A stretch of DNA of 64,000 bases from positions 2,046,001 to 2,110,000 of the forward strand of contig NZ_JADWYR010000001.1 in the NCBI RefSeq assembly GCF_015831355.1, written 5' to 3'. The translations under genes and the position numbers were made by a program. The DNA comes from Panacibacter microcysteis. Lineage in GTDB: Bacteria > Bacteroidota > Bacteroidia > Chitinophagales > Chitinophagaceae. Below the pieces are notes generated by a model, which was not told the DNA's origin, made no database searches, and worked only from the letters and a program-made list of their open reading frames with translations. Shown here one piece after another: positions 57,338 to 62,675 of the stretch; positions within the stretch are counted from its first letter, which is position 1, and the number at the start of each line of letters is the position of its first letter.

Positions 57338-57496
57338 TTATCACGAGATTAAAAGGGAAGTCCGGTGTAAATCCGGCGCTATCCCCGTAGCTGTAAGCTT
57401 TTTATACTGTTGAATCTGCATACCACTGTTATATACGGGAAGGTGTTCAACAGGAAGCGAGCCAGAAGACCTGCCATATCCAGCATTTATCACGAG
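57338..57496 (+). promoter_or_regulatory. Cobalamin (B12) riboswitch
   Basis: The conserved aptamer parts are present in order: AAAAGGGAAG (57351-57360), GGTGTAAATCCGGCGCT then CCCCGTAGCTGTAA (57364-57396) and the B12 box GCGAGCCAGAAGACCTGCC (57457-57475). A direct repeat TTATCACGAG flanks the aptamer (57338-57347 and 57487-57496). Downstream hairpin-forming segments (CTTTCGGGTGAAAAG, GAGATGAGAGGGTCTC) up to 57530 probably form the expression platform. It controls the operon starting with btuB. Binding of adenosylcobalamin or a related form should turn expression down. Boundaries are approximate. Confidence 0.93.
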
Positions 57497-57605
57497 CTTT
57501 CGGGTGAAAAGCCGGAGATGAGAGGGTCTCAAAGACATTTTCATTTCTACTACTTTCATTTTACGGAGGCTTATTCTTCAAACAACAACTTAAACATTCA
57601 GAAGA

Positions 57606-59477
57606 ATGAGCATGAAAAAATTATTTTTACTGGCTGCCATTGCAGCAGCACAAGGCGTTTGCGCCCAGTCAGATTCTACAGGCAATGCATTGGATGAAGT
57701 AGTGGTTACCGCTACCAAAAGTCCTAAAAAGCTGAGCGAGACAGGCAAAGTCTTAACCGTTATAACAAAAGCACAGATTGAGCGCAGCGGTGGAAAGGAT
57801 TTTGCGCAACTCATTACCGAACAAACGGGCATTATTGTTAACGGCGCTGTAAGTAATGCGGGTAAAGACAAGTCTTTGTTTTTGCGGGGTGCAACAGATA
57901 AATACACGCTTATACTTTTAGATGATATACCGTTGAATGAACCGGCAGGCGTTGGCGGCAGCTTTGATCTTCGTTTGCTATCATTAGATAACATTGAACG
58001 CATAGAAATTTTAAAAGGTAGCCAGAGTACGCTCTACGGTTCCAATGCTGTAGCAGGTGTAATCAATATCATTTCTAAAAAGCCTGCTACTGCTAAGCCA
58101 CAATTCAATGCGCTGGCTACTTACGGCAGTTTCAATACTTTTAAAGGCAATGCAAACATCAGCCAGAAAGCCAAGGTGCTGGAGTACGATCTCAACTACA
58201 CGTACTACAATACAGATGGTATTTCTGAAGCGAAAGACACAACGGGCAAGGCAAATTTTGATAAAGACGGTTTCACACAACATGCCGTGCAGGCGGTTGT
58301 GGGTATAAATATTACAAAGCAGCTAAAAATTTCACCCTACTACCGCTTTACACAGTTTACCGGCGGGTATGATGCGGATGCATTTACAGACGCGCCCAAT
58401 AACTACAATGCATCGCTGGTGAACAGCGGGCTCGATGGCCGTTACAACTATGCAAAAGGAACCGTGCATGTTAACTATGGGTACGACTTTACAAAACGTT
58501 TGTACGCCGGACAGTATGGCGATTTTACTATGAAAGGTAAATTTCATCATGCAGAACTTTTTGTAAACCATACTTTCAGCAAAGCTTTGCAAATGGTGGC
58601 AGGCGCCAATTTACAAGTGTACAGGATAGATGCACCAGATACGGTAAACAGTATTGTAAGCCCTTTTGTTTCCTTGTTTTTACACAGCAACAATGGCTGG
58701 AATATAGAGTTGGGCGGACGATATAACCAGCATAACAAATATGGCGGCAACGCTACTTACAGTTTTAACCCATCTTATCTCATCAACGAAAAGATAAAAC
58801 TGTTTGCCAATGTTACCAGTGGTTTTCGTGCACCCTCAATAGGAGAGTTGTTTGGACCCTACGGGGCAAACCCGGATCTTAAACCGGAAAAATCTAACAC
58901 CCAGGAAGCAGGCGTACAGGCCGTTATAGCAAACAAAAAAATAACTGCAACAATTACCGGCTTTAACAGGACAATTACAGATGTCATCGTTTATAACACC
59001 AATTACACTTACGAAAACCGTGACAAACAGCATGACTTTGGTGCTGAACTGGAATTAAGCATTACGCCTGTTGAGCAGCTGAATATTAAAGCTTCTTATG
59101 CGTATATCGATGGTAAAATTACACAGGCACTGCAGGGGAAAGACACATCTTATTACAACCTGTTGCGCAGGCCTAAGCATAGTGTAAATCTCTACGCAGG
59201 CTACCAGGTATCCAAGCAACTTTTTATAAGTGCATCTACACAGGTTATTGGCAAGCGCACAGACAACTATTTTGATCCAAACACATTTGTGGCCACGCAG
59301 GTTGACTTGTCTGCCTATGCATTGGTAAATATGTATGCAGAATACCGTTTTTTAAAGAGCAGGCTTAATGTGTTTGTTGATGCAAAAAACCTGTTTGACA
59401 AAACGAACTTTTACGAAGTATACGGTTACGGTGTACAGGGCATTAATGTAACAGGTGGGGTACGATTGAGGTTATAA
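57606..59477 (+). CDS. btuB: TonB-dependent cobalamin receptor BtuB-like
   Basis: 623 aa. ATG codons at 57606 and 57612 are possible. The signal peptide ends at VCAQS. A TonB box (DEVVVTATKSPKK) leads the plug domain (about 45-150, with LFLRGATDKYTLILLDDIPLN and GSQSTLYGSNAVAGVINIISKKP), then a 22-strand barrel ends in an aromatic residue pattern (VTGGVRLRL). It has no SusD partner and no regulatory-like beta domain, unlike the SusC proteins at 25516 and 34621. The riboswitch upstream makes corrinoid uptake the likely role. Confidence 0.93.
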   Translation: MSMKKLFLLAAIAAAQGVCAQSDSTGNALDEVVVTATKSPKKLSETGKVLTVITKAQIERSGGKDFAQLITEQTGIIVNGAVSNAGKDKSLFLRGATDKYTLILLDDIPLNEPAGVGGSFDLRLLSLDNIERIEILKGSQSTLYGSNAVAGVINIISKKPATAKPQFNALATYGSFNTFKGNANISQKAKVLEYDLNYTYYNTDGISEAKDTTGKANFDKDGFTQHAVQAVVGINITKQLKISPYYRFTQFTGGYDADAFTDAPNNYNASLVNSGLDGRYNYAKGTVHVNYGYDFTKRLYAGQYGDFTMKGKFHHAELFVNHTFSKALQMVAGANLQVYRIDAPDTVNSIVSPFVSLFLHSNNGWNIELGGRYNQHNKYGGNATYSFNPSYLINEKIKLFANVTSGFRAPSIGELFGPYGANPDLKPEKSNTQEAGVQAVIANKKITATITGFNRTITDVIVYNTNYTYENRDKQHDFGAELELSITPVEQLNIKASYAYIDGKITQALQGKDTSYYNLLRRPKHSVNLYAGYQVSKQLFISASTQVIGKRTDNYFDPNTFVATQVDLSAYALVNMYAEYRFLKSRLNVFVDAKNLFDKTNFYEVYGYGVQGINVTGGVRLRL

Positions 59478-59507
59478 TTTTTATAAAAAAGAATAATACT
59501 ATTTCTG

Positions 59508-60086
59508 ATGTCTAACAGTAAAATCAATCCGCGCAATACTGTTGTATTGCTCATGATCATCGTCATCGCTGCAATACGGCTCTTCAATAATTTCAGCACC
59601 AACATCAGTGTGCTGGCAAATTATTCGCCACTTGCAGCAATGGCTTTATTTGGCAGCGCATATTTTAAAGGAAACGTAAGACCGCTCCTGTTTCCGTTAA
59701 TGGCAATTTTTATCAGTGATGTTGTTTTGTTTACAACTGTTTACAAAGACTATGGCAATGGCTTTTTGTACGATGGATGGGTTTGGGTATACGGCGCATT
59801 TTTAGTGATCGCTGTTTCAGCAAAGCTTATCATCAGGAAGATCAGCGTGCCGCGTATAGCAGCAGCGGTTATTACGGCCGTTTTAATACATTGGCTGGTT
59901 ACTGATTTTGGCGTTTGGCTGGGAAGCAAAACCTATGCGCAAACCTGGAGCGGATTTATGGCATGTCTTGCGGCGGCGATCCCGTTTGAGTTGCGTTTGC
60001 TTACCGCAACCATTATTTATAGTACTATTATGTTTGGCATATTCGAGCTTATGCAGCGTAAATATGTGGCACTAAAAGCAATGTAG
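59508..60086 (+). CDS. DUF6580 family membrane protein, possible vitamin transport component
   Basis: 192 aa with five to six transmembrane segments. The opening NYSPLAAMALFGSAYFKGN and LFPLMAIFISDVVLF match the DUF6580 family (formerly unnamed). Its small size and compact helices recall ECF-transporter S components, but no energy-coupling partner is visible. It lies 30 bases downstream of btuB in the riboswitch-controlled operon, so corrinoid movement across the inner membrane is a reasonable inference, not a demonstrated function. Confidence 0.8.
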   Translation: MSNSKINPRNTVVLLMIIVIAAIRLFNNFSTNISVLANYSPLAAMALFGSAYFKGNVRPLLFPLMAIFISDVVLFTTVYKDYGNGFLYDGWVWVYGAFLVIAVSAKLIIRKISVPRIAAAVITAVLIHWLVTDFGVWLGSKTYAQTWSGFMACLAAAIPFELRLLTATIIYSTIMFGIFELMQRKYVALKAM

Positions 60087-60138
60087 CTTAACAGTCTTCT
60101 TTATATAACATATATCCCTCAACAAAAATATTGTTACT

Positions 60139-61074
60139 ATGAAAGCCTGTTCTTTTCTTCCGGCTGCAACGCAGATGATCTATGACATGGGTTTGCAACA
60201 TTTGTTGCATGGCGTTACGTTTGAGTGCCCGGCAATAGCATTACAAGAGAAAGCAAAAGTTGTGCGTTGTGTGCTGGAGGGAAAGGCTTATTCAAGTACT
60301 GAAATCGACCGTATTTTTTCCGCCTCCAGGGCGCAGGGTAAAAGCTTGTATTATGTTGATGATACTATACTGCAGGCAATACAACCAGATGTAATTTTTA
60401 CGCAGGATGTATGCGAAGTTTGCCAGATAGATACTGCCTGCACCGCTGCAGCTGTTGCCCGGCTGGAGAAACAACCATTGCTTATACCGCTTACTCCGCA
60501 AAACCTCGATGATGTATACACTACTGCCATTACAATAGCTGCAGCATTGGGGAATGAAACAGCGGCTTATACCCACCTTGCTGCTTTATCGCAACGTACT
60601 GCTGCCATACTGGATGTACTGCGTGCGCACCGCATGCCGTTAAAACGTGTAATGCTGATGGAATGGATAGCGCCTGTATATAATTGCGGACACTGGATCC
60701 CTTTCCAGGTGGCACAGGCCGGGGGTATAGATATGCTTGGCAATCCCGGTGGTGATTCTATAGTAACGCAATGGGAAAAAATTGTGAAGTACAACCCGGA
60801 GGTCTTGGTTGTGGCACCATGCGGTTTCAATGTCAGCCGTTCTTTACAGGAAATGCACCTGCTAACCCAAAAGCCTGGATGGCATTCCCTGCAGGCTGTA
60901 CAAAACGGCCAGGTTTTTATACTCGATTTTGATTTGTTTACCCAACCCAGTGCCTCTACGCTGGTTGATGGAATAGAACTGCTCTCGGCAATTTTTCATC
61001 CGCAACTATTCCATGTGCCGGCACACCTGCAACAGAAGTTTGTTAACTTTTTTACTGTAAATGAGTATGCCTAA
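60139..61074 (+). CDS. BtuF-like corrinoid-binding protein without a signal peptide
   Basis: 311 aa with the periplasmic-binding (PF01497) fold: SFLPAATQMIYDMGL at the start, YVDDTILQAIQPDVIFTQD, VLMEWIAPVYNCGHW and PCGFNVSRSL. The protein starts directly at the binding fold (MKACSFLP) and has no hydrophobic export signal, so a cytoplasmic location is predicted; about ten cysteines are present. It follows DUF6580 and overlaps the next gene by 14 bases. Relatives are usually periplasmic parts of BtuCDF, but no BtuC or BtuD gene is in the window. Possibly it has been recruited to handle corrinoid in the cytosol. Confidence 0.85.
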   Translation: MKACSFLPAATQMIYDMGLQHLLHGVTFECPAIALQEKAKVVRCVLEGKAYSSTEIDRIFSASRAQGKSLYYVDDTILQAIQPDVIFTQDVCEVCQIDTACTAAAVARLEKQPLLIPLTPQNLDDVYTTAITIAAALGNETAAYTHLAALSQRTAAILDVLRAHRMPLKRVMLMEWIAPVYNCGHWIPFQVAQAGGIDMLGNPGGDSIVTQWEKIVKYNPEVLVVAPCGFNVSRSLQEMHLLTQKPGWHSLQAVQNGQVFILDFDLFTQPSASTLVDGIELLSAIFHPQLFHVPAHLQQKFVNFFTVNEYA

Positions 61075-61282
61075 ACATGAGCCGAAGGTTTGTCCGCGAT
61101 GCAACAACGAGTTTGAATGTCGTGCAGGGGATATTACAAATTGCCAGTGCAGTGCTGTAGCATTAACCGTAGAAGAACAGGCATTCATAGAAGACCGCTA
61201 CAACGACTGCCTTTGTACAGGTTGTTTACACGCGCTAAAGAACAGGTATGTTTTTTTCAAAGAAAAATTTTTAGGCCGTTGA
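61061..61282 (+). CDS. Cysteine-rich CWC family protein
   Basis: 73 aa (start 61061, alternative ATG 61067). It has eight cysteines in CPRC, FECR, NCQCS and DCLCTGC, typical of the Cys_rich_CWC family (PF14375), and likely binds a metal such as zinc. Function unknown. It overlaps the BtuF-like gene by 14 bases and the next gene by 4 bases (TTGA), which puts it inside the B12 operon. Confidence 0.88.
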   Translation: MSMPKHEPKVCPRCNNEFECRAGDITNCQCSAVALTVEEQAFIEDRYNDCLCTGCLHALKNRYVFFKEKFLGR

Positions 61283-61989
61283 GCAGGCTGCAGGCATATA
61301 TGAACTGGAGTGGCGGCAAAGATTCAGCACTTTGCCTGTATAGGGTTTTGCAAAGTGGTTTATACAACGTTTCTCGATTACTTACCAGTGTTAATGCTGT
61401 ACATGACCGTATTTCTATGCACGGCGTAAGGCGGTCTTTACTGCAGGTCCAGGCGGCGGCAATCGGCATTCCATTAACAACAATCGAATTGCCGGAGCAA
61501 CCGGGCATGCAGGAATACGAAGAAATGATGCAGCAAAAAGTAGCAGAACAACGTAATGCCGGTTGTACACATGCTATTTTCGGCGACATATTTTTAGAAG
61601 ATTTGAAACTTTACCGGCAGCAAAAACTGGCCGCTTCGGGTATAAACTGCGTGTTTCCTTTATGGAAGATAAATACGCTGCAACTGGTAAATGAATTTAT
61701 TGCTGCAGGTTTTAAAAGTATCATCGTTTGTGTAAATGAACAATACCTGGATGCTTCTTTTTGCGGAAGAATAATTGATCATGATTTTATCAGCGCTCTT
61801 CCGCCAAACGTAGATCCTTGTGGGGAGCATGGCGAATTTCACTCTTTCGTGTTTGATGGACCTATTTTTAAAACGCCCGTAAATTTTACCAAAGGCGACG
61901 TGGTGCGTAAAACATATGCGGCACCCGCCGGTAGCCCTGTACCAGACTATGGCTTTTATTTCTGCGATCTCCTGCCTTTGTATACATGA
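61279..61989 (+). CDS. DUF71/Dph6-type ATP-pyrophosphatase, likely of the B12-salvage subgroup
   Basis: 236 aa from TTG at 61279, which overlaps the preceding stop and keeps the first beta strand before the PP-loop SGGKDSA; ATG at 61300 would cut that strand short. Further parts are TSVNAVHDRISMHGVRR, GCTHAIFGDIF and FVFDGPIF. The DUF71/COG2102 family includes diphthine-ammonia ligase Dph6 in eukaryotes and archaea; bacteria have no diphthamide. A comparative-genomics study of the family predicted that a bacterial subgroup acts in B12 salvage, and the location in a riboswitch-controlled operon fits that. Amide ligation or hydrolysis on a corrinoid is the inferred type of reaction. Confidence 0.85.
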   Translation: MSRLQAYMNWSGGKDSALCLYRVLQSGLYNVSRLLTSVNAVHDRISMHGVRRSLLQVQAAAIGIPLTTIELPEQPGMQEYEEMMQQKVAEQRNAGCTHAIFGDIFLEDLKLYRQQKLAASGINCVFPLWKINTLQLVNEFIAAGFKSIIVCVNEQYLDASFCGRIIDHDFISALPPNVDPCGEHGEFHSFVFDGPIFKTPVNFTKGDVVRKTYAAPAGSPVPDYGFYFCDLLPLYT

Positions 61990-62096: not shown

Positions 62097-62675
62097 ATGC
62101 CAATCGACATCAGCAAACTTATCACCGTCATCTTTACGCTGTTTGCCGTTATAGATATTGTTGGTTCTATTCCCGTTCTTATTGGTTTGAAAGGCAAAAT
62201 GGGCAGTATAAGAACGCTGCAGGCAACAGTGGTTTCCGGTGTGTTTATGGTAGGTTTTCTTTTTGTGGGTGAGCAGTTCCTGGCTATTCTCAGTCTCGAT
62301 GTTCATTCGTTTGCCGTTGGAGGTTCTATTGTAATATTTTTGATAGGGCTCGAAATGGTATTAGGTAAAGAAATATTTCACAGCGAAACCAATGCAAAAA
62401 GCGGAACGGTTGTGCCCATCGCTTTTCCTATAATAGCGGGCAGTGGTACACTTACCACCGTTATGTCGCTCAAAGCAAACTATGAAGACTGGTACATACT
62501 TATTGGCATTATTATAAACCTTGTTATCGTGTACCTGGTGCTAAGATCACTCAGTTATATAGAGCGTGTGTTGGGAGAAGCAGGACTGGCGGCCATCCGC
62601 AAGTTTTTTGGTGTTATACTTCTTGCCATTGCCGTAAAGATTTTTGGTACCAATGTATCGCAGTTTATAAAATAA
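62097..62675 (+). CDS. MarC family (UPF0056) inner membrane protein
   Basis: 192 aa from ATG at 62097 (MPIDISKLITVIF), with six transmembrane segments; the open frame extends 31 codons upstream into non-family sequence. The family motifs FAVIDIVGSIPVLIGL, GGSIVIFLIGLEMVLG and PIAFPIIAGSGTLTTVMS are clear. MarC proteins were once linked to antibiotic resistance but their substrate is not known. It is outside the B12 operon in function, though only about 107 bases downstream. Confidence 0.92.
   Translation: MPIDISKLITVIFTLFAVIDIVGSIPVLIGLKGKMGSIRTLQATVVSGVFMVGFLFVGEQFLAILSLDVHSFAVGGSIVIFLIGLEMVLGKEIFHSETNAKSGTVVPIAFPIIAGSGTLTTVMSLKANYEDWYILIGIIINLVIVYLVLRSLSYIERVLGEAGLAAIRKFFGVILLAIAVKIFGTNVSQFIK

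Follow-up and report, generated by a model that had tools for sequence, protein, structure and literature searches.

A riboswitch-controlled B12 operon of Panacibacter microcysteis in which DUF6580 most likely serves as the inner-membrane transporter in place of BtuCD

The stretch of DNA considered here, called the window, comprises 64,000 nucleotides of the genome of Panacibacter microcysteis (Bacteroidota, Chitinophagaceae; RefSeq assembly GCF_015831355.1, contig NZ_JADWYR010000001.1, positions 2,046,001 to 2,110,000). It contains a cobalamin riboswitch followed by genes for a BtuB-like outer-membrane receptor, a membrane protein of the DUF6580 family, a cysteine-rich BtuF-like protein, a CWC protein and a DUF71 ATP pyrophosphatase (Table 1). 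This order, with its short spacers and overlaps, had been read from the sequence alone by a model (the original prediction) and is borne out by the Rfam and family matches. The riboswitch match is full length (model positions 1-189 of 189) and is the single one in a search of the whole genome. As read off the sequence, 30 bp separate btuB from the DUF6580 gene and 52 bp the latter from the BtuF-like gene, the BtuF-like and CWC genes overlap by 14 bp, and the CWC and DUF71 genes by a few bases. The listed start of the DUF71 open reading frame (ORF) at 61117 (290 residues) was rejected because the homologues begin with M..AYMNWSGGKDS; a TTG at 61279, which would create a 4-base overlap with the CWC gene, or an ATG at 61300 is the more likely start. 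No gene for a permease or an ATPase of an ATP-binding cassette (ABC) importer lies at the operon locus, as had also been predicted.

Table 1. Features of the riboswitch operon in the window
Feature	Position	Strand	Evidence
Cobalamin riboswitch RF00174	57307..57492	+	Rfam cmscan 89.8 bits, E 6.8e-21; gathering score 31.5
btuB-like TonB-dependent outer-membrane receptor, 623 aa	57606..59477	+	PF07715, PF00593; TIGR01779 236 bits, below the equivalog cut-off of 599.7
DUF6580 membrane protein, 192 aa	59508..60086	+	PF20221 162.7 bits, cut-off 27
Signal-less Cys-rich BtuF-like protein, 311 aa	60139..61074	+	Peripla_BP_2 PF01497 55.6 bits
Cys-rich CWC protein, 73 aa	61061..61282	+	PF14375 48 bits
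DUF71-B12 N-type ATP pyrophosphatase, ~236 aa	61279..61989	+	PF01902 125.9 bits; SGGKDS PP-loop motif; start inferred
MarC-family membrane protein, possible final operon gene	62097..62675	+	PF01914; start inferred from homologues

The source genome (G000) is rated 100% complete in an assembly of 11 contigs. Whole-genome searches revealed no match to the FecCD/BtuC permease family (PF01032), even at E 0.001 and with a control that was positive in 13 of 14 genomes, and none to CbiQ/EcfT (PF02361). The original prediction had asked for a search for btuC and btuD, which found nothing, and within the reach of family models its suggestion of a BtuCD encoded elsewhere is excluded. An importer of the energy-coupling factor (ECF) type was rejected for G000 for lack of a CbiQ/EcfT match. 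For a BacA/Rv1819c-type importer, of which we take ABC_membrane_2 (PF06472) to be the family, the whole genome likewise contained no match, in a search with a weak control (positive in just 2 of 14 genomes). Five B12-binding domains score over the cut-off in G000, open frames of 905 and 1129 residues being among those that contain them. Family searches of the whole genome gave no CobS or CobU match, and the organism should therefore depend on the import of complete cobamide; it can probably not convert cobinamide into a finished cobamide along the usual pathway. Two PF01497 proteins are encoded in G000, the one in the window and a 263-residue protein on contig 3 (L002:1438-2229), and neither has an evident signal peptide, as judged by reading and with no signal-peptide program run. 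Since G000 has no FecCD match, the 263-residue protein is an unlikely partner of a classical ABC importer of that type.

The distribution of the two membrane families was compared in a phylum sample of 198 Bacteroidota genomes, each at least 90% complete, of which 194 contain a cobalamin riboswitch. DUF6580 scores over the cut-off in 81 of them (G062, below the cut-off, was excluded), and FecCD is matched in 141, over the cut-off in 140 and strongly (E <1e-60) in 130. Counting strong FecCD matches, 67 genomes have DUF6580 only, 116 FecCD only, 14 both and 1 neither; counting all FecCD matches, the figures are 56, 116, 25 and 1. Eleven genomes, all of them carriers of DUF6580, have weak FecCD matches alone, at E 2.5e-5 to 1.2e-14 (G022, G037, G064, G097, G104, G112, G123, G148, G158, G160 and G196). 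Besides G000, 55 DUF6580 genomes have no FecCD match at all. DUF6580-only genomes occur in 18 families and 20 families lack DUF6580; those members of families f3 and f22 that lack it carry FecCD. Fisher's test of the exclusion gives p 1.7e-37 over the 198 genomes, a value that ignores kinship. DUF71 shows no such exclusion: it scores over the cut-off in 50 genomes, 34 of which have strong FecCD and 23 DUF6580. Among DUF6580, DUF71 and CbiQ, the families tested over the sample, DUF6580 alone tracks the absence of FecCD. The single genome with neither DUF6580 nor FecCD, G136, nevertheless has a cobalamin riboswitch, and may reflect an assembly gap or have another importer.

DUF6580 is also linked to the riboswitch. 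In 26 of 88 distinct DUF6580 loci in the phylum (87 fetched plus the window; in L114, L140 and L169 the gene was missed by the ORF caller and Pfam coordinates were used instead), the stretch examined contains a riboswitch, and in 25 of these DUF6580 follows it on the same strand, L110 being excluded because its DUF6580 gene is on the opposite strand. By chance, about 0.08 such loci would be expected, a figure calculated from the approximate values of 1.6 riboswitches per genome, 3.6 Mb, 4 kb and 87 loci. The 26 riboswitch-bearing loci span 11 of the 19 families that contain DUF6580. A second set consists of 80 loci from close relatives (L200-L279), retrieved with an alignment (A2) of riboswitch-linked members; at least four genomes are common to the 198-genome sample and these 80 loci, so that the two counts are not independent. 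In both sets riboswitches were called with a custom nucleotide profile, and all nine loci checked were confirmed by Rfam. A riboswitch lies upstream of DUF6580 in 74 of the 80 relatives; in the other six (L212, L223, L246, L249, L263 and L271) none was found within 2.7 kb upstream, of which just 846 bases were available in L271. The chains downstream contain a BtuF-like gene in 67 relatives, DUF71 in 64, a Sir2-family gene in 49 and CWC in 17, and the BtuF-like and DUF71 genes occur together in 58. Because the riboswitch and the BtuF-like neighbor recur at these frequencies, the gene order in the window is not a product of chance. The co-occurrence of DUF6580, the BtuF-like gene and DUF71 with B12 riboswitches that the original prediction proposed to look for in other Bacteroidota is thus found. 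A complete BtuCD with a secreted BtuF elsewhere and no such co-occurrence would have been the opposite picture; what the genomes contain is no BtuCD in G000, a second PF01497 protein without an evident signal peptide, and the co-occurrence.

In eight loci the riboswitch directly precedes DUF6580, six from the close relatives (L204, L208, L233, L236, L243 and L279) and two from the phylum set (L112 and L150), all confirmed by Rfam; L237 was not counted because a btuB-like gene sits between the riboswitch and DUF6580. The order in L208 is riboswitch-DUF6580-cobU-cobT-cobS-cobC and that in L204 is the same up to cobS, with no btuB, BtuF-like, CWC or DUF71 gene seen in the stretch examined of either locus. 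At the other extreme is a long operon form that comprises, with variations (L205, L220, L269 and L276), btuB, DUF6580, BtuF, CWC, cobU, (bluB), DUF71, cobT, cobS, cobC and MarC; the window operon resembles a shortened variant of this form. MarC is chained behind operon genes in 5 of the 80 relatives and is found anywhere in the locus in 12 (L200-L203, L205, L220, L251, L255, L269, L275, L276 and L278); in L205, L269 and L276 it follows a cobC-like gene. A MarC gene that recurs after B12 operons might belong to corrinoid handling.

An AlphaFold model of DUF6580 was built from 53 sequences (predicted local distance difference test 89.7, predicted template modelling score 0.85). In a Foldseek search the first rank was taken by BtuM with cyanocobalamin (E 0.027, probability 1.00). 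BtuM (8ovv) was also the best match from the Protein Data Bank (PDB) in a second structural comparison, with a Z-score of 13.5 and a root-mean-square deviation of 3.4 over 167 of 175 residues; a second BtuM match reached Z 13.4, the deviations and aligned residues over both matches being 3.4-3.5 and 167-168. Next came the S-components of folate, riboflavin, pantothenate, biotin and thiamin transporters and CbiM, with Z 8.3-12.6. The only other protein in the first 22 rows was an MreD chain (Z 9.0), and the clearly unrelated rows that follow start at 7.3. There was no fold match among viral models at E 0.001. At the level of sequence, a profile of the 53 DUF6580 proteins matched no PDB chain up to E 10, BtuM included. 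The mean column identity of the 53 sequences is 54%; R24, A44, F48, D71, Y95, W129 and P159 are invariant, and 52 of the 53 have H128. The order of the conserved residues R24, D71, Y95, H128 and W129 resembles that of H28, D67, C80, Y85 and R153 in BtuM, a resemblance that is only suggestive. On its own the modeled fold proves nothing, but alongside the genetic evidence it carries weight.

BtuM of Thiobacillus denitrificans is described (PMC6072759) as a protein that works alone, in bacteria with BtuB and without BtuCDF; it is found mostly in alpha-, beta- and gamma-proteobacteria and has an invariant cobalt-ligating cysteine (Cys80 in T. denitrificans). DUF6580 shares with BtuM (PDB 8ovv, 8c7p) the small six-helix S-component fold, predicted in the case of DUF6580, the solitary occurrence without EcfT, and a setting in which BtuB is present and BtuCDF is not. 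However, there is no detectable sequence similarity, and the invariant cysteine of BtuM has no invariant counterpart. On this evidence, DUF6580 would work like BtuM yet fall outside the BtuM family. The S-components of ECF transporters have the fold that is predicted for DUF6580, but neither G000 nor 77 of the 81 DUF6580 genomes has a CbiQ/EcfT match; DUF6580 would therefore work alone, like BtuM. BtuCDF occupies the same place in the pathway, and in the genome inventory it is BtuCDF whose slot DUF6580 takes; in contrast to BtuCDF-containing bacteria, G000 has no permease match, and its BtuF-like protein has six invariant cysteines and no evident signal peptide. The btuB-btuG operons of Bacteroides resemble the window in that btuB follows a riboswitch (PMC6143338), whereas the one control Bacteroides genome has FecCD and no DUF6580.

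These observations are best explained by an operon for B12 import in which DUF6580 has taken over from the BtuCD ABC pump, a reading to which we assign a probability of roughly 0.83. At low B12 concentrations the riboswitch would be permissive and the operon expressed. BtuB would carry cobamide into the periplasm, and DUF6580, with its six predicted helices and BtuM/ECF S-component fold, would move it across the inner membrane without BtuC and BtuD or an ECF energizing module. Inside the cell the signal-less Cys-rich BtuF-like protein, CWC and DUF71 would bind and process the corrinoid. What the analysis establishes is the gene content, the riboswitch, the lack of matches to known importers, the patterns of co-occurrence and exclusion, and the predicted fold; we infer cobamide as the substrate, the transport activity, its direction and its energy source, and the entire cytosolic step. 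The proposal in the original prediction that DUF6580 provides the inner-membrane step is very likely correct, being strongly supported by the phylogenetic exclusion, the riboswitch linkage and the BtuM-like fold, and DUF6580 is most likely a BtuM-like inner-membrane B12 transporter that replaces BtuCD in many Bacteroidota.

Several points weigh against this interpretation. In 55 of the 81 DUF6580 genomes no riboswitch lies in the stretch examined around the gene, and the 80 relatives over-represent the riboswitch-linked branch. The exclusion of DUF6580 and FecCD is mostly one between families, so that the Fisher p overstates the independent evidence; the line between strong and weak FecCD matches was drawn by us, and the Pfam cut-off is exceeded by at least 10 of the 11 weak ones; and permeases for siderophores and heme belong to FecCD as well. 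The importer search of G000 covered FecCD, EcfT and ABC_membrane_2, and BtuM was not searched for. With regard to the structure, Foldseek gives no match for the DUF6580 model at E 0.001 or better, and the second tool warns that helical bundles can reach Z-scores near 13, to which the score with BtuM is close. None of the cysteines is invariant in the 53 sequences: 39 of them have a Cys at position 153, and three lack Cys entirely. Finally, G000 has a second, divergent DUF6580 copy (C1:662361-662891; L094:8353-8928) beside genes for a phosphomannose isomerase and an RNase H-like protein, without a riboswitch; given this unlinked copy and the riboswitch-less loci, some members of the family may carry something else.

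The BtuF-like, CWC and DUF71 genes constitute a cytosolic module that is separable from DUF6580, as seen from L204 and L208, where DUF6580 stands under the riboswitch without a BtuF-like or DUF71 gene. In line with the original prediction, the BtuF-like protein has no evident signal peptide: its ORF opens at 60139, the earliest start codon available downstream of a stop, and residues 3-5 already form the first beta strand in the model. Its invariant residues in 40 aligned sequences include C30, C92, C95, C101, C183, H185 and C228, and the motif TQDxC(E/Q)xC is present in 66 of 67 BtuF-like ORFs, the exception being a fragment. At 73%, its mean column identity is above that of DUF6580, the two sequence sets overlapping but differing. 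The fold of the model is that of heme-, B12- and siderophore-binding proteins (Z ~19-23), among which BtuF, with up to 21.6, is not separable from the others; in sequence there is a single weak match to a solved structure (E 0.005). The best solved relatives of the DUF71 protein are the DUF71 structures 3rjz/3rk1 and 2d13.

A DUF71-B12 subgroup has been defined by the motif E-N-G-E-F/Y-H in place of EGG(E/D)xE of Dph6, and its role in salvage is a prediction (PMC3541065). The window protein has EHGEFH, the N being replaced by H, rather than the Dph6 motif; among 64 relatives, 62 have ENGEFH or ENGEYH and the other two EYGEFH and EHGEFH. It thus shares with the subgroup the PP-loop, an E-x-G-E-F-H motif and the vicinity of B12 transport genes. 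The neighbors named in that paper (PMC3541065) are B12 transporter genes such as those of BtuCDF, and CbiB, whereas in the window the neighbor is DUF6580, in a genome without CobU or CobS matches. When loci were centered on DUF71 (flanks of ~1.5 kb, BtuF-like profile built from close relatives), the Cys-rich BtuF-like gene adjoined it in just 4 of 30, the window included, and all four are DUF6580 operons.

The module probably captures and processes corrinoid, and the BtuF-like protein may be a cytosolic carrier that passes corrinoid to DUF71. A tentative extension would be a two-part importer without an ABC pump, in which DUF6580 would equilibrate cobamide across the membrane and net uptake would be driven by BtuF-like capture inside; the once periplasmic binding protein would have lost its signal peptide, gained invariant cysteines and turned into a cytosolic acceptor, would strip or exchange the upper ligand by means of its CxxC motif, and would hand the corrinoid to CWC and DUF71. 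If so, a binding protein switched membrane side when the ABC pump was replaced. Another proposal, which concerns the cytosolic step and does not compete with transport by DUF6580, assigns the three proteins to nucleotide-loop assembly or remodeling, as in a CbiZ-like pathway that turns pseudo-B12 into cobyric acid. It gains some weight from several relatives in which the module genes stand among cobU, bluB, cobT, cobS and cobC, and from the published salvage prediction for DUF71-B12 (PMC3541065). It is nevertheless unlikely. We think that the module acts on the incoming corrinoid, by binding, upper-ligand removal or delivery, and not in loop assembly, because G000 keeps all three genes without CobS or CobU, and none of the three was seen in the stretches examined of L204 and L208, which have cobU, cobT and cobS. 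Since no CobU or CobS was found, salvage by remodeling fits G000 badly, and DUF71 is unlikely to be a remodeling enzyme in this organism.

As to the inner membrane itself, DUF6580 could merely assist, as a chaperone, decyanase or adaptor, while another transporter, such as MarC or a BtuM homologue encoded elsewhere, performs the step. The window and the relatives mentioned above have MarC chained to the operon, BtuM is outside the families searched in G000, and the many DUF6580 genes without an adjacent riboswitch would suit a helper. We regard such a role as improbable: L204 and L208 have no MarC match, DUF6580 is the only one of the families tested (MarC was not among them) that tracks the absence of FecCD, and its predicted fold is that of substrate-binding transport proteins. 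The presence of DUF6580 in all 80 relative loci is uninformative here, as the loci were chosen by DUF6580. Quite improbable, too, is that DUF6580 is an S-component of general use, for another vitamin or a cobamide precursor, and that the riboswitch operon represents one of several recruitments. S-component folds do carry many vitamins, and copies outside riboswitch operons exist, including the one beside the phosphomannose isomerase gene; but the branch to which the window protein belongs is riboswitch-linked in nearly all relatives and opens the cobU, cobT, cobS operon in L204 and L208, and the exclusion of FecCD extends to the unlinked copies. DUF6580 might possibly transport cobinamide or other corrinoids besides cobalamin. 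That G000 contains a BtuCD too divergent for the Pfam model or hidden in an assembly gap is hardly to be expected, despite the eleven genomes with only weak FecCD matches and the eleven contigs of the assembly, considering that the genome, rated 100% complete, has no match even at the relaxed threshold, that 55 further DUF6580 genomes likewise have none, and that both PF01497 proteins lack an evident signal peptide.

Transport by DUF6580 in place of BtuCD would make it a new family within a known kind, the solitary B12 transporters with a modeled S-component fold, and one of wide distribution. The terms DUF6580 and PF20221 were absent from the literature searched, and among the matches listed for B12 transporters in combination with Bacteroidetes, Pedobacter, Chitinophaga or BtuM no title or beginning of an abstract dealt with a DUF6580 protein. 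With 67 of 198 genomes containing DUF6580 and no strong FecCD, it is a concrete importer candidate for much of one phylum. If the assignment is correct, the family acquires a function, predictions of B12 uptake are corrected in many Bacteroidota, and a second solitary S-component fold, unrelated in sequence to the first, would carry B12.

The riboswitch operons contain further genes. A Sir2-family gene near DUF71 was observed in L108, L109, L110 and L111 in addition to the 49 relatives, mostly Pedobacter; that of L111, the single one scanned, scores below the cut-off of the NCBI CobB model. In six riboswitch-linked DUF6580 loci (L115, L150, L154, L165, L169 and L175), a gene that forms one cluster lies beside btuB; two of its members match DUF5074, and a BtuG-like surface binder is a possible product. 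In the operon of Hydrotalea, BluB and CobT are fused (L276:11049-12761; BluB 160.6 bits, cut-off 150), and in Runella (L279:7998-10266) the riboswitch is followed by DUF6580, DUF71 and then the biotin synthase BioB (408.7 bits, cut-off 225).

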